A DNA stretch of 64,000 bases from Gammaproteobacteria bacterium (lineage in GTDB: Bacteria > Pseudomonadota > Gammaproteobacteria > Steroidobacterales > Steroidobacteraceae). Under the pieces are notes generated by a model. The model made no database searches and had not been told where the DNA came from. It saw only the letters and a list, made by a program, of their open reading frames with translations. Below, one piece after another: positions 35,778 to 42,765 of this stretch. How positions within the stretch are numbered: position 1 is the first letter of the stretch; each line of letters begins with the position of its first letter. The stretch lies in assembly GCA_947469285.1 (NCBI GenBank), contig CANIOW010000005.1:62001-126000 (forward strand), given 5' to 3'. The position numbers and the translations under genes were made by a program.

Positions 35778-38417
35778 GTGTCAGCGCCACGGGCTCCTTA
35801 TAATTCTCGCGTCATCGGCACCTGTTGGTACAAGACCCTCTTGGATCTCTTACAGCTTTTCTCCCGTAGCACCCCTTTTCGCCGGTTGGTGGCCGCCATC
35901 GGTGCTGCCATGCTGCTTGCCTTGCTGTTTGGCACCATTGGTAACGCCATTCCCGCGGCCTTGGATGGTCTGCTGGCCGATATCACTCAGCGCGCGGATA
36001 ATCGGCAAATTGACACCGTACGCGTAGTCACCTTGCCCGGCGGTGCTAGCGGCACCAGTCTCAGCCGTGCCGAACTCGCGCGTCTGCATGAACACCTCGT
36101 GGCTGCCGGCGCACTGGCGGTAGTGCTGCAAGTCCCGCTAGACACACCGCAAGCGGCTCGCGATCTCGCGCAAGTACAAGGCATGCTCGATGCCGTCGGC
36201 GCCAGTCAGGATCCGGCACTCCAGACTCGACTACGCAACTGGGCGCAGGAACTCGACCACGATGCCCGGCTAGAACTGGCGCTGCGCCGCAGTGGCCATG
36301 CTGTACTGGTCGCGCCTGAGCAGGTGCCAAGCCCTGCCGGAGAGCCCAGCACCCCGTTGACGGCCCTGCCCGCGCTGAACTCCATTGATGCTCCTGCCCT
36401 ACCACCAGTGGCGGGGCCACTCGCACGGTTCAGTCAGGTGGCCGTCTCAGCCACCTTATCGCCGGCCCATATCGATGCCGATGGCATCCGGCGTCATGAG
36501 GCCTTGTATTTCGAGACGCCGGACGGCGCCGTGCCTTCCGTGGCCCTGGCCGCTTGGCTGGTCGCCCATGGCATGAAGCCAGAACAACTCAGTGGTGGCG
36601 AAAGTGCCGTGAACGCCGGCACCCAGCAGTTGCTGTTAGCCGGCGATGCCACTTGGCTACCGCGTTATGGTGCCGCGACGGCGCTCCACCGCTCCTCGGC
36701 CAACCAATGGATATCCCCTACCGCAGCACCCGACGATGTGCGTGGCCGAGTGGTGGTGGTATGCCCACACATGCCGCTGGAGGCAACACCCGCCGGACGA
36801 CGCCTGTCGCAATGCGACGGCACGGCATTACGCATCGCCAGCCTCATGGCCGGCGACTATCTGCTCGAGCCCCTGTGGACACGTCTATTGGTGCTACTGC
36901 TGTGGGCGGCCGTCATCGCTTTCGCAGCGCTGGTCGCTCCCACGCTACCGACGGTGGGCCGCATTGCGGCAGGTAGCGGCTTGGCCGTCGGTATTATCGG
37001 ACTAGAACTCTGGCTGCTCTCTGAGCACAACACCGTGGTGCAATTGATGCCGGTAGTTATTGCGCTCGCGGCATTGCTACCCTGGGTCTGGCGGCTCCGT
37101 ATTCCCGAGCGAACCATTGCCGAAAGCCTTTTAGCCTCAGAAGGCGCCCACTTTCCCACCCGCGTTCGCTCCAAAGCCGACTTAGCCCGAGGGTCAGCTA
37201 ACGGTTATTCCAGCCAAACCACCCCGCTACCCGTGCCGGCACGACCATCCACCTTGACCGCCGCGGAAGCCGCTACGGCCAGTCGGCTGGGTCTTGACGC
37301 ACCGACGAATACCACGGACCCGGTGGCAACTGCTGTCATCCCACGCCCACCCGTGCCGCCCAGTGCCGTCCCAGCCAAAGCGACCACACTGACCGGATCA
37401 CGCAACCTCAAAGCCTTGCCGATCCCAGCGGCCGCAGCCGGCCACACCTCACTGCGCGAACTATCGAATCAACTCAGTTCACGCATGCTGGATCCCTCAA
37501 CCGCCGACGTCGCCGACCTGCTACTAGGCCGCATCAAACGCCCCGAAAAACCCAAACTCGGCCGTTATGAACTTGACCGCGAAGTCGGTCGTGGTGCCAT
37601 GGGCACCGTGTACGTCGGGCGCGATCCGCAAATCAACCGGGTCGTGGCGATCAAGGCCATCCCCTTGTCGGATGAGGCCAACGAATCTGATGCCAGCGAA
37701 TTAAAGGCGCGCTTTTTTCGCGAAGCGGAAATGGCCGGTAGGCTGGCACATCCGCGTATCGTGACTGTATTCGACGCCGGTGAAGACCGCGGAATTGCCT
37801 ACATCGCCATGGAGTTCGTTCAGGGACAAACACTGAGCGACTTCACTAATTCCGATCGCCGCTTACCGGATGCCGAGGTTCTCGAAGTAATCGCTCGCGT
37901 TGCAGAAGGCTTGGATTACGCCCACACGCAGGGAGTGGTGCACCGGGATATCAAGCCCGGAAACATCATTTACAATCCATCTACAGGCGTCACCAAAATC
38001 ACTGACTTTGGCATCGCCAGGGTCACCAATTCTGCGTCTACGCGCACCGGCATTGTGCTCGGCACGCCTTCATTCATGTCGCCAGAACAGCTTGAGGGGA
38101 AAAAACTCAAGGGCACTAGCGATTTGTTTTCGCTGGGAATCACTCTATTTCAGTTATTGACCGGTCAACTGCCCTTCCGCGCCGACTCTATGACGGCATT
38201 GATGGACAAGATCGCCAATTCACCCCACCCGCCGCTAGAAACACTACGTCCGGATCTTCCACCAGCCGCAGCACTCATTATCGACCACGCTCTGGAGAAA
38301 GATCCCGCGCATCGTTTCCAGACTGGAGTAGAGATGGCTTCTGCGCTACGCCACTGCGCTGCAGTACTTGGCGCTGGCCAGACGGCCGCCTTCGAAATTG
38401 GGGTCAACGATGACTGA
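35778..38417 (+). CDS. Transmembrane CHASE2-domain Ser/Thr protein kinase
   Basis: 879 residues from this GTG. The order is an N-terminal membrane helix (~38-60), an extracytoplasmic CHASE2 sensor (~65-365), three close helices (~367-437), a Pro/Thr/Ala-rich linker (~450-590) and a Hanks-type kinase (~594-865). Kinase motifs are the glycine loop GRGAMGTVYVG, VVAIKAIPL with the ATP lysine, catalytic HRDIKPGN (~722), DFGIAR and SPEQLEGKKL. CHASE2 usually senses an extracellular or periplasmic cue of unknown nature. The start is uncertain: a TATAAT at 35799 lies inside the frame, and TTG at 35841 is an alternative. The 3' end overlaps the PP2C gene by 8 bases. Confidence 0.9.
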   Translation: MSAPRAPYNSRVIGTCWYKTLLDLLQLFSRSTPFRRLVAAIGAAMLLALLFGTIGNAIPAALDGLLADITQRADNRQIDTVRVVTLPGGASGTSLSRAELARLHEHLVAAGALAVVLQVPLDTPQAARDLAQVQGMLDAVGASQDPALQTRLRNWAQELDHDARLELALRRSGHAVLVAPEQVPSPAGEPSTPLTALPALNSIDAPALPPVAGPLARFSQVAVSATLSPAHIDADGIRRHEALYFETPDGAVPSVALAAWLVAHGMKPEQLSGGESAVNAGTQQLLLAGDATWLPRYGAATALHRSSANQWISPTAAPDDVRGRVVVVCPHMPLEATPAGRRLSQCDGTALRIASLMAGDYLLEPLWTRLLVLLLWAAVIAFAALVAPTLPTVGRIAAGSGLAVGIIGLELWLLSEHNTVVQLMPVVIALAALLPWVWRLRIPERTIAESLLASEGAHFPTRVRSKADLARGSANGYSSQTTPLPVPARPSTLTAAEAATASRLGLDAPTNTTDPVATAVIPRPPVPPSAVPAKATTLTGSRNLKALPIPAAAAGHTSLRELSNQLSSRMLDPSTADVADLLLGRIKRPEKPKLGRYELDREVGRGAMGTVYVGRDPQINRVVAIKAIPLSDEANESDASELKARFFREAEMAGRLAHPRIVTVFDAGEDRGIAYIAMEFVQGQTLSDFTNSDRRLPDAEVLEVIARVAEGLDYAHTQGVVHRDIKPGNIIYNPSTGVTKITDFGIARVTNSASTRTGIVLGTPSFMSPEQLEGKKLKGTSDLFSLGITLFQLLTGQLPFRADSMTALMDKIANSPHPPLETLRPDLPPAAALIIDHALEKDPAHRFQTGVEMASALRHCAAVLGAGQTAAFEIGVNDD

Positions 38418-39252
38418 AGTCCGTTATCTGTCGCTACGCAACAAGCTTCGCAGCTTCGCGCTGACCGACACCGGTCGGGTGCGTGAGCATAACGAAGATT
38501 CCCTCGGTTCTGACCCGGACCTGGGGTTATTCGTGCTGGCCGATGGGATGGGTGGATACAATGCCGGCGAAATTGCCAGCGGCATAGCGGTCAAGACCAT
38601 CATGAGCCTGGTCCGTGAGGCTTACGCCGTACAATCAATGAAGTATCGGGACACCGTCAGCGGCCTATCACGGCCGTCCATCGTGCTGCGTGATGCTATC
38701 TTGCGCGCCAACAAACTGATCCATCAGACCGCAAAGACGCAAACCCAGTGCGAGGGCATGGGCACCACGATAGTGGCCTGCCTGTTTCATGACAACCATA
38801 TTTGCGTGGCGCACGTCGGCGATTCGCGACTATATCGCCTACGGAATGAGCGTTTCGAGCGCATGACCCAAGATCATAGCCTGCTGCAGGAACTCGTTGA
38901 CCGCGGATTTTACACTCCAGAGGAAGCGGCCCGCTCGACGAACAAAAATTACGTGACCCGCGCCCTCGGCGTAGAGCTCACCGTGGACGTGGAACTTCAT
39001 GAATTCCCAACGCAACCAGGCGATTGTTTCTTGCTCTGCTCTGATGGCTTGTCAGACATGGTGACCGATGAAGACCTGCAACTAACCTTAAGTACTTTTG
39101 GACACGACTTACAGGTAGCGGGCCAACAACTGGTGAAATTAGCCAACGAACAAGGTGGACGTGACAACATCTCCGCCATGCTCGCTAGAGTGATTGATGT
39201 CTACCCTGCGGAAAAGAGCATCATTGAGCGCTTGCGCAGCTGGCTGCACTGA
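38410..39252 (+). CDS. PP2C-family protein phosphatase
   Basis: 280 residues, cytoplasmic. Metal-binding motifs are in order: RVREHNEDSLG, VLADGMGGYNAGE, VAHVGDSRLYRL, LLCSDGLSDMV and GGRDNISAML. The family removes phosphate from Ser/Thr and is the usual partner of Hanks kinases. The ATG at 38410 overlaps the kinase stop by 8 bases, so the two proteins are translationally coupled. It probably reverses autophosphorylation of the kinase and of FHA-bound targets; the pairing is inferred from position. Confidence 0.94.
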   Translation: MTEVRYLSLRNKLRSFALTDTGRVREHNEDSLGSDPDLGLFVLADGMGGYNAGEIASGIAVKTIMSLVREAYAVQSMKYRDTVSGLSRPSIVLRDAILRANKLIHQTAKTQTQCEGMGTTIVACLFHDNHICVAHVGDSRLYRLRNERFERMTQDHSLLQELVDRGFYTPEEAARSTNKNYVTRALGVELTVDVELHEFPTQPGDCFLLCSDGLSDMVTDEDLQLTLSTFGHDLQVAGQQLVKLANEQGGRDNISAMLARVIDVYPAEKSIIERLRSWLH

Positions 39253-39293: not shown

Positions 39294-40010
39294 ATGACAC
39301 GCCTCATTCTGACGCTGGACGGACGATCTCTAGCCGAATACAACATGAGTAAAGAGCGCTGCACCATCGGCCGCTTATCCGATAACGACGTACGTATCGA
39401 TAATACGGCGGTCAGCGGTCATCATGCGCTCATTATCAATATCCTCAACGACTCATTTCTTGAAGATTTAAATTCAACTAACGGCACCTACGTTAACGGC
39501 AAGTTAATTAAAAAACATTCCCTACAACACAACGATCTCATCACGATCGGGCATCACCAGCTGCGTTTCATTGATAGTCACGCTGACGCCGGTGATGATG
39601 AGTTTGAAAAAACCTTGGTGATTCAGTCGACGGACGTCACCGATGACCGACTGCGACCTATTAGCCGACAACCACTAGCGAACGCCAGCACAGCCGCTGC
39701 ACCGACACAGACCCACCGTGCCAGCGAAGCTGCACCGCGTCGCCTGTCGCGCCTGCATGTGTTGTCCGGACCCTTCTCTGGTCGCGAACTCGAGCTAACC
39801 AAAGTCCTGACGACACTGGGACGACCCGGACTACAGGTAGCCGCCGTGACTCGCCGTGGCGACCAACACTACCTGATGTATATCGACAGCGGGGAGGCGG
39901 GACATTTCCCGCAGGTTAACGGTGAGCCTATCGGCTTGCAGGCTCGCCGACTCGTCGATAACGACGTAATTACCCTCGCGGGCGTGAAGATGGCGTTCTT
40001 CGAGGTTTAA
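39294..40010 (+). CDS. FHA-domain phosphothreonine-binding protein
   Basis: 238 residues. The N-terminal FHA domain (~1-95) has the phosphopeptide-binding residues in CTIGRLSDNDVRIDN, GHHALI and LNSTNGTYVNGKLI. A Thr/Ala/Pro-rich linker (~105-145, including TLVIQSTDVTDD) leads to a second, diverged FHA-like fold (~146-238) that lacks the clean GR/SxxH signature. No transmembrane segment. A strong AGGAGGT lies 9 bases upstream. The first 300 bases are visibly AT-richer than their neighbours. As the third gene after kinase and phosphatase it is the likely reader of the phosphorylation. The last 41 bases overlap the convergent pseudouridine synthase gene. Confidence 0.9.
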   Translation: MTRLILTLDGRSLAEYNMSKERCTIGRLSDNDVRIDNTAVSGHHALIINILNDSFLEDLNSTNGTYVNGKLIKKHSLQHNDLITIGHHQLRFIDSHADAGDDEFEKTLVIQSTDVTDDRLRPISRQPLANASTAAAPTQTHRASEAAPRRLSRLHVLSGPFSGRELELTKVLTTLGRPGLQVAAVTRRGDQHYLMYIDSGEAGHFPQVNGEPIGLQARRLVDNDVITLAGVKMAFFEV

Positions 40011-41226
40011 GCGTTACCCGTGCAGCAGCGGCAGGCATGCCGCTGCCGAAATGCGCCGGCAACAGGCCAGCGAGTTCTACCGCCGACAGTTCACGCCAGC
40101 GGCCTTGCGGCAACGCTCCCAGCTCGATATTGACAATGCGCACCCGGCGCAGCCGGCGTACGGTGTAGTCGAAGTGTTCACACATGCGCCGAATCTGCCG
40201 ATTCAGGCCCTGAGTTAGCACCATACCGAAAGTATTCTTACCCACCATCCAGGTACGGCAAGGCAAGGTCACGGTATCTAAAATAGGCACTCCCTGCGCG
40301 AGAGCTTCGAGAAAAGCTGGCGTCAGCGGACGGTCGACTTCCACCAGATATTCTTTCTCATGACCATGCTCGGCCCGTAGCAGGTCATTAACGATATTAC
40401 CGTCGTTGGTCAGCAGAATCAGACCTTCTGAATCCTTGTCCAGACGACCAATTGGAAACACGCGCTCATGGTGTCCCACAAAATCGACAATGTTGCCCAG
40501 GACACGACGGTCCGTGGTGCATTCAATACCCACTGGTTTGTGTAAGGCGAGATAGATTTTTCGCCGCACCGCTTGTGCTGGCAGACCATCAACGGAGACG
40601 CTATCACCCTCCTGCACGCGGGTTCCCAGAACGGCAGGCTGACCATTGATCACAATGCGACCATTGGCGATCCAGGCATCCGCCTCACGCCGCGAACAGA
40701 CGCCGGTTTCTGCCAGCCATTTATTCAGCCGCGTACCCGGCAGAGTGGCCGTGACTGGCGCTGGAAAAGGCTGCTGCAAACTGAACGCTGCTGCGGTATC
40801 ACCGTGCTCCGCTCGCTGCGCTAGACGCAGCTCACCTTCCGCAGCCGTTGGCCGGTGGCCGGCAGGCACCCACCACAGCACATAAGTCACGCCAGCAGCT
40901 GGCAGGAACCAGTCGTCACGGTCCTGCATCACCACACGATGTTCCGGGCCATAAGTAAAGGCGGCGAGCGATTCTACGTCGCGCCACAGACTGAGGTTGT
41001 AGATCACCTCATCGCCGAACGGTCGATGGCCCAGATTACCAGGCCCCGTGCCATCCTCTTCACGCCAAAGAAATCCGGGTGCCGCGTCGGCGAGTGCATT
41101 CACCGCCGCAATGCGTTCCACAAACGGCAGCAAACGTGGCGCATCGATGGGTTCGCGCAGGCGCGACACATTCATCTGCGCCAGAATCCAAGGGCCGGCG
41201 ATCGGAGGAATCATGCCTGCCGTCAT
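39970..41226 (-). CDS. DUF3291-like domain fused to RluF-type pseudouridine synthase
   Basis: 418 residues in one uninterrupted frame. Residues ~10-150 resemble DUF3291 (WILAQMNVSRLREPID, RIAAVNALADAAPGFLWR, YVLWWVPAGHRP). From ~163 it is an RluF/RluB-type enzyme: S4 domain (TRLNKWLAETGVCSRREADAWI) and catalytic domain with the active-site Asp in GRLDKDSEGLILLTND and the GLNRQIRRMCEHF segment. RluF modifies U2604 of 23S rRNA; the target here is inferred. The start directly abuts the rhlE stop (TAAATG), so the fusion is probably translated from the rhlE mRNA. The DUF3291-like part has no known function to me; a separate start inside the gene cannot be excluded. Confidence 0.85.
   Translation of the reverse strand: MTAGMIPPIAGPWILAQMNVSRLREPIDAPRLLPFVERIAAVNALADAAPGFLWREEDGTGPGNLGHRPFGDEVIYNLSLWRDVESLAAFTYGPEHRVVMQDRDDWFLPAAGVTYVLWWVPAGHRPTAAEGELRLAQRAEHGDTAAAFSLQQPFPAPVTATLPGTRLNKWLAETGVCSRREADAWIANGRIVINGQPAVLGTRVQEGDSVSVDGLPAQAVRRKIYLALHKPVGIECTTDRRVLGNIVDFVGHHERVFPIGRLDKDSEGLILLTNDGNIVNDLLRAEHGHEKEYLVEVDRPLTPAFLEALAQGVPILDTVTLPCRTWMVGKNTFGMVLTQGLNRQIRRMCEHFDYTVRRLRRVRIVNIELGALPQGRWRELSAVELAGLLPAHFGSGMPAAAARVTLKPRRTPSSRPRG

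Positions 41227-42765
<1,539 letters not shown>

Follow-up and report, generated by a model that had tools for sequence, protein, structure and literature searches.

What does it mean that a DUF3291 domain is joined, in one reading frame, to an RluF-type pseudouridine synthase whose gene lies beside that of an rhlE-type helicase? The 64,000-nucleotide stretch of Steroidobacteraceae DNA analyzed here (the window) holds such a gene, and its preliminary description had proposed that the added domain may serve rRNA modification and that the fusion could reveal a function for DUF3291. The reading that we favor, and regard as reasonably probable, is a fusion confined to a single lineage, in which a divergent DUF3291 domain was joined to a working RluF, probably as a passenger or mild modifier.

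The architecture described at first sight holds up. The gene (Table 1) is one open frame without internal stops, from the ATG at 41226 to a stop whose last base is 39970, and the domain search of the full protein that had been proposed recovers DUF3291, S4 and an RluF-type catalytic domain, all three above their Pfam cut-offs. Specifically, DUF3291 (PF11695) is a whole-profile match above the gathering score (150.9 bits, E 2.3e-44, cut-off 23.5, profile positions 1–138 of 139), followed after a gap of ~13 residues by S4 (40.1 bits; cut-off 22.8) and then by PseudoU_synth_2 (64.7 bits; cut-off 26.8). The best NCBIfam model for the protein is RluF (NF007784; 280 bits over aa 164–390, with the curated cut-off of 318 not reached), the RluB model reaches only 87.1 bits, and the pseudouridine synthase subfamily TIGR00093 is matched above its cut-off (143.7 vs 109.3 bits). 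The fusion also directly abuts rhlE, as first described, and the sequence reads TAAATG where the helicase gene stops and the fusion starts; this helicase has RhlE as its best NCBIfam model (446.8 bits, under the cut-off of 743).

Table 1. Features of the fusion locus (window positions) and of the corresponding slot in three sister genomes (locus positions).
Feature	Position	Strand	Basis or remark
DUF3291–RluF fusion gene, 418 aa	39970..41226	-	Open frame, Pfam, NCBIfam
First five codons, MTAGM	41212..41226	-	Align with HD-domain gene start of sister species
DUF3291 domain, aa 15–152, predicted dimeric alpha+beta barrel (ABM-like)	40771..41184	-	Pfam, predicted model
Junction/linker, aa 153–163	40738..40770	-	In place of stand-alone rluF spacer, start codon and N-terminal lead
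S4 RNA-binding domain, aa 166–210	40597..40731	-	Pfam
Pseudouridine synthase catalytic domain, aa 225–351	40174..40554	-	Pfam; GRLDKDSEG and HEKEY motifs
Asp263 codon, aligned with catalytic Asp	40438-40440	-	Alignment
rhlE-type DEAD-box RNA helicase, directly upstream of fusion	41227..42765	-	Pfam, NCBIfam
FHA-domain gene, tail-to-tail with fusion, 41-base overlap	39294..40010	+	Pfam; overlap common to sister species
Sister HD-domain genes, ~230 aa, between rhlE and rluF	L005:2390-3085, L006:2390-3082, L007:2375-3070	-	

A frame of this kind might be an artefact of assembly or sequencing, with two separate genes run together through a missing stop or a frameshift; the fusion is known from one genome's assembly alone, and the end of DUF3291 and the start of S4 are close together. 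The sister genomes argue against such an origin. All three same-genus genomes share the order rhlE, HD-domain gene, rluF, FHA and PP2C, with a stand-alone rluF of 270 aa and HD-domain genes called at 231, 230, and 231 aa (the Pfam search behind this assignment covered two of the three HD proteins). The window keeps the same order, but with DUF3291 in the slot of the HD gene and without a stop before rluF, so both flanks are syntenic. In the alignment, identity to the sisters extends past the end of rhlE and takes in the first five codons of the gene that follows (by eye, 14, 12, and 13 of 15 bases agree with the HD gene in L005, L006, and L007), is lost across the DUF3291 stretch and is regained at the N-terminus of rluF, while the sisters' spacer and rluF ATG are missing, so that the rluF lead stands without a start of its own. 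No DUF3291 match was found in any of the three same-genus genomes with RluF (one of them, G003, 75% complete), and codon-position composition, G+C included, shows no step at the DUF3291/RluF junction. A misjoin would need two hits within ~470 bases and appears unlikely because flank order is the same in all three sisters, the contig carrying the fusion measures 139 kb, and the genome is estimated to be 100% complete with 0.01 contamination. We therefore consider an artefact of either kind very improbable.

The exchange in this slot may have run either way, with the HD gene replaced by DUF3291 or the reverse, as no outgroup with an rhlE-X-rluF order was seen among the loci compared. The window's genome yielded no match to the HD gene and no second copy of DUF3291. 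The HD-domain protein is itself patchily distributed, with matches, some of them weak, in 9 of 59 genomes of relatives; in G011 and G027, 1.5 kb flanks of its relatives show neither rhlE nor rluF beside them. In two other genera, rluF and rhlE are near neighbors on one strand (L010:1546-3723 and L016:1504-3565), with rluF first, i.e., in the order opposite to the window's; this arrangement hints at a recurrent rluF–rhlE pairing in the family. On the other side, a CHASE2 Ser/Thr kinase, a PP2C phosphatase and an FHA protein stand in a row (35778-39252 and 39294-40010, plus strand), converging on the fusion, and the PP2C and FHA genes hold the same place in the three sister genomes.

Even a genuine join could be mostly incidental if the two domains were also made separately, from a start at TTG150 or downstream. 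The frame has no in-frame ATG from residue 100 to residue 327. What speaks for separate synthesis is TTG150, which lies at the domain boundary and has no other start-like codon beside it there; GTG113, GTG116, GTG120, and GTG192 all fall inside the DUF3291 or S4 domains. However, TTG is a weak start codon, and no clear Shine-Dalgarno sequence was seen by eye in the 20 bases ahead of TTG150. Separate production of the two domains is a reading to which we give very little weight.

The RluF part is 81% identical to the RluF of the sisters and 60–71% identical to that of 12 other family members, and the comparison with L007 points to purifying selection because dN is 0.13 against a dS of about 2.3 (NG86; dS near saturation); dN is 0.14 against L005 and L006, for which dS was not computable. 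The S4 domain, catalytic Asp and Tyr, and motif III expected of an RluF are all present, with Asp263 in GRLDKDSEG, Tyr293 in HEKEY, and QGLNRQIRRM at 339, and the match to E. coli RluF (3dh3) reaches 253.6 bits over aa 164–409. The fusion is also the only RluF-type match found in its genome, two other loci being matched best as RluB and RluE, both below cut-off. Judged by its sequence, the fusion most likely yields a functional pseudouridine synthase of the RluF type. Its low RluF score is not due to the fusion, because the stand-alone proteins of two sisters (283.6 and 287.2) and of L016 (288.8) also fall under 318; that of L008 scores 323.2.

Which uridine this enzyme modifies is a finer question. 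A study of RluB proposes that a loop at residues 131–138 (128–135 in RluF) separates the two specificities, with an Asp conserved in RluF (PMC3919597). In the fusion this bulge-binding loop is RAEHGHEK (aa 284–291), with Gly288 aligned to the E. coli Asp (residue 132 of 3dh3), so that the conserved Asp associated with 2604 rather than 2605 is absent. None of 16 genome rows has Asp at this position (Gly in 7, the window included; Glu in 3, Arg in 2, Ala in 2, Val in 1, and His in 1), and the lack of this Asp is hence a feature of the clade and not of the fusion. Set beside what we take to be the letters of the RluB loop, the fusion's loop is not RluB-like either. The hairpin GAACGTCGTGAGACAGTTCGG, presumably the pattern of the 23S rRNA target, occurs once, with 0 mismatches, in a count over the whole genome. 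The target of the fusion is probably, though not certainly, U2604 of 23S rRNA; the exact position is uncertain because the bulge-loop Asp is absent and the RluF cut-off was missed (280 vs 318).

The DUF3291 part is divergent. It retains every one of the 17 columns invariant across a 64-row alignment (its own row among the 64) but, in a second alignment, only 28 of 35 columns with at least 90% conservation in 28 other rows drawn from family- and order-level relatives; most other rows keep 30–31 of 31–33, the lowest being L023 (28 of 35) and L024 and L026 (28 of 31). Such losses allow that the original DUF3291 activity has gone. Identity to any aligned relative is at most about 52%, and in a tree of 121 domains, built on 143 columns with many forks unresolved, the window is joined with L023 (97/81; genome G035, 49% identical), both on long branches. 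A mobile or viral donor was sought without success: no DUF3291 relative was found in the viral contigs scanned, and the best of 13 plasmid records with DUF3291 reaches 47% identity. Measured against six window genes, codon usage is 0.188 bits per codon in the DUF3291 part and 0.161 in the RluF part, and the DUF3291 part bears no apparent sign of recent foreign origin because its codon usage fits as well as that of the RluF part.

Modeling suggests what the domain may look like. The DUF3291 domain, modeled as a monomer (pLDDT 86.8), drew 27 Foldseek matches at E ≤ 0.001 (best E 8.6e-5) and aligned in VIA-align with chains of the ABM/Dabb fold at Z up to 9.8 over 97–99 residues, from which a dimeric alpha+beta barrel with an ABM-like (ferredoxin-like) fold is predicted; in 48 of the 50 rows listed, the match does not reach the C-terminal helix and tail, which start at about aa 127. 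A model of the full-length fusion, built with DUF3291 rows only, has a mean pLDDT of 62.4, and its RluF part is for that reason unreliable. In a search of solved structures, the DUF3291 alignment met no more than two weak matches, both designed TIM barrels and taken as chance. An ABM-like fold usually means a homodimer with a small-molecule pocket. Going by the predicted fold, the DUF3291 barrel probably forms a homodimer and may have room for a small ligand.

These properties invite a regulatory reading, in which the barrel binds a small molecule or enforces a dimer and pseudouridylation follows a metabolic signal. The retention of all 17 invariant columns is consistent with it, as is the general association of the fold with ligand pockets and homodimers. 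However, 7 of the 35 strongly conserved columns have changed, the fusion was found once in the samples, and the sisters do without DUF3291; we consider regulation by the barrel unlikely. The bolder version, that a ligand-binding and dimerising barrel grafted onto the bacterium's only RluF has produced a ligand-responsive or dimeric, regulated rRNA pseudouridine synthase, strikes us as less likely still.

How far the fusion extends beyond this genome was assessed in genome samples of the family, order, class, and phylum, which overlap one another. DUF3291 has a patchy distribution: of four genomes in the genus only the window's own has it, and the samples give 33 of 217 genomes for the family, 82 of 396 for the order, 22 of 369 for the class, and 44 of 398 for the phylum. 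No second DUF3291–RluF fusion was found in the four samples or in 80 named loci, and no other locus among 153 compared has both DUF3291 and RluF. In the sample match lists, both domains would fit into frames of about 363 aa or more (a fusion interrupted by a frameshift or the end of a contig escapes this count), and besides the window's there are five of that length. On reading, four of these, in G1173 (481 aa), G1153 (441), G1119 (441), and G1125 (411), proved to have no RluF, nor did the fifth, G490 (978 aa), where a marginal DUF3291 match sits within a kinase/repeat frame, the shorter frames in G869 (351), G376 (342), G059 (337), and G146 (284), or the longest named frames (L144 and L111). 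In six of eight of the frames read, long and shorter ones, an ATG lies no more than 7 residues from the start of the domain match, the remainder being run-on of a G+C-rich frame. The 153 loci contain 120 DUF3291 matches, two from the window itself and some others counting one gene twice; that DUF3291 proteins normally stand alone, as the preliminary description had it, is borne out by 117 of the 118 others, with fewer than 40 residues after the match, the remaining one having 122 unrelated residues. This last is a Bryobacteraceae protein (L136:3983-4789) whose 122 residues past the domain are unlike RluF. No DUF3291–RluF fusion was found among the papers that literature searches listed, as judged from titles and abstract openings. 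Of the genome count that the preliminary description had called for, the fusion itself stands and its recurrence does not: within the samples searched, it is unique to the window's genome.

The remaining proposal, that DUF3291 in general acts in rRNA modification or ribosome assembly and that the fusion reveals this function, draws on the fusion itself, on its adjacency to rhlE, and on RhlE-like helicase matches in the flanks, covered to at most 4 kb, at 4 of the 80 named DUF3291 loci, two of them from one genus. In those four loci, however, the helicase lies ~2–3.5 kb off rather than adjacent (in L120, from its match alone), and as the sisters are rhlE–HD–rluF, the rhlE neighborhood belongs to rluF rather than to DUF3291. 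DUF3291 and RluF occur together at the window's locus only. A crude ORF picker returned 94 ORFs beside DUF3291 in the named loci, 78 of which were taken to a family search: the commonest family among these 78 neighbors (HTH_20) appears in 4, no rRNA-modification family is among the 25 of 81 families listed, and the sole RNA-linked name among those 25 is PIN, in 2. The one paper found to mention DUF3291, moreover, tabulates it under electron transport chain, glutathione metabolism, and Fe-S-cluster biogenesis (PMC12828279). With a single occurrence, and with RluF lacking DUF3291 in 3 of 3 sisters, the proposal is not borne out, and we give it scarcely any credence; because the fusion is a one-off in the samples searched, it says little on what DUF3291 does.

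On the simplest account, the single-lineage fusion that we favor would have arisen as follows. Illegitimate recombination between rhlE and rluF would have placed a DUF3291 frame in the slot that the sisters fill with the HD gene, entering in frame with rluF at the cost of the rluF start. The fusion would be translated from the start that touches the rhlE stop, its translation now tied to that stop. RluF activity would persist, since an S4 domain at the N-terminus on a flexible linker would tolerate the addition; such an N-terminal extension is sterically plausible because the N-terminal S4 module is described as flexibly tethered in RluB and its relatives (PMC3919597). S4 would then grip the loop end of the 23S rRNA hairpin around U2604, with Asp263 and Tyr293 catalyzing. 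The barrel, probably a passenger or mild modifier of RluF, might affect oligomer state, stability, or expression coupling and would not be needed for pseudouridylation.

Should the barrel modulate RluF after all, the fusion would open a natural way into the manner and timing of rRNA pseudouridylation and would place DUF3291 in a biochemical context for the first time. For now, the locus chiefly shows that the rhlE–rluF neighborhood contains a variable slot in which refilling and fusion are possible, and it is a caution against giving DUF3291 a function from a single fusion.

Set beside known systems, the fusion resembles E. coli RluF (PDB 3dh3, 2gml) in its S4 and catalytic domains and in the motifs GRLDKDS, HEKEY, and QGLNRQIRRM; unlike E. 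coli RluF, it has a 150-residue N-terminal DUF3291, no start of its own for the RluF part, Gly for the bulge-loop Asp, and a sub-cut-off NCBIfam score. The predicted DUF3291 fold is like that of LsrG, YgiN, and SnoaB (ABM/Dabb barrels; Z 8.8–9.8 over 95–97 residues), but at 10–14% identity, a likeness in predicted fold. With other DUF3291 proteins (PF11695) it shares a full-length domain (150.9 bits) and the invariant columns, whereas the window's domain alone, among those searched, is fused to RluF, with its limited identity to them and its long branch beside L023.
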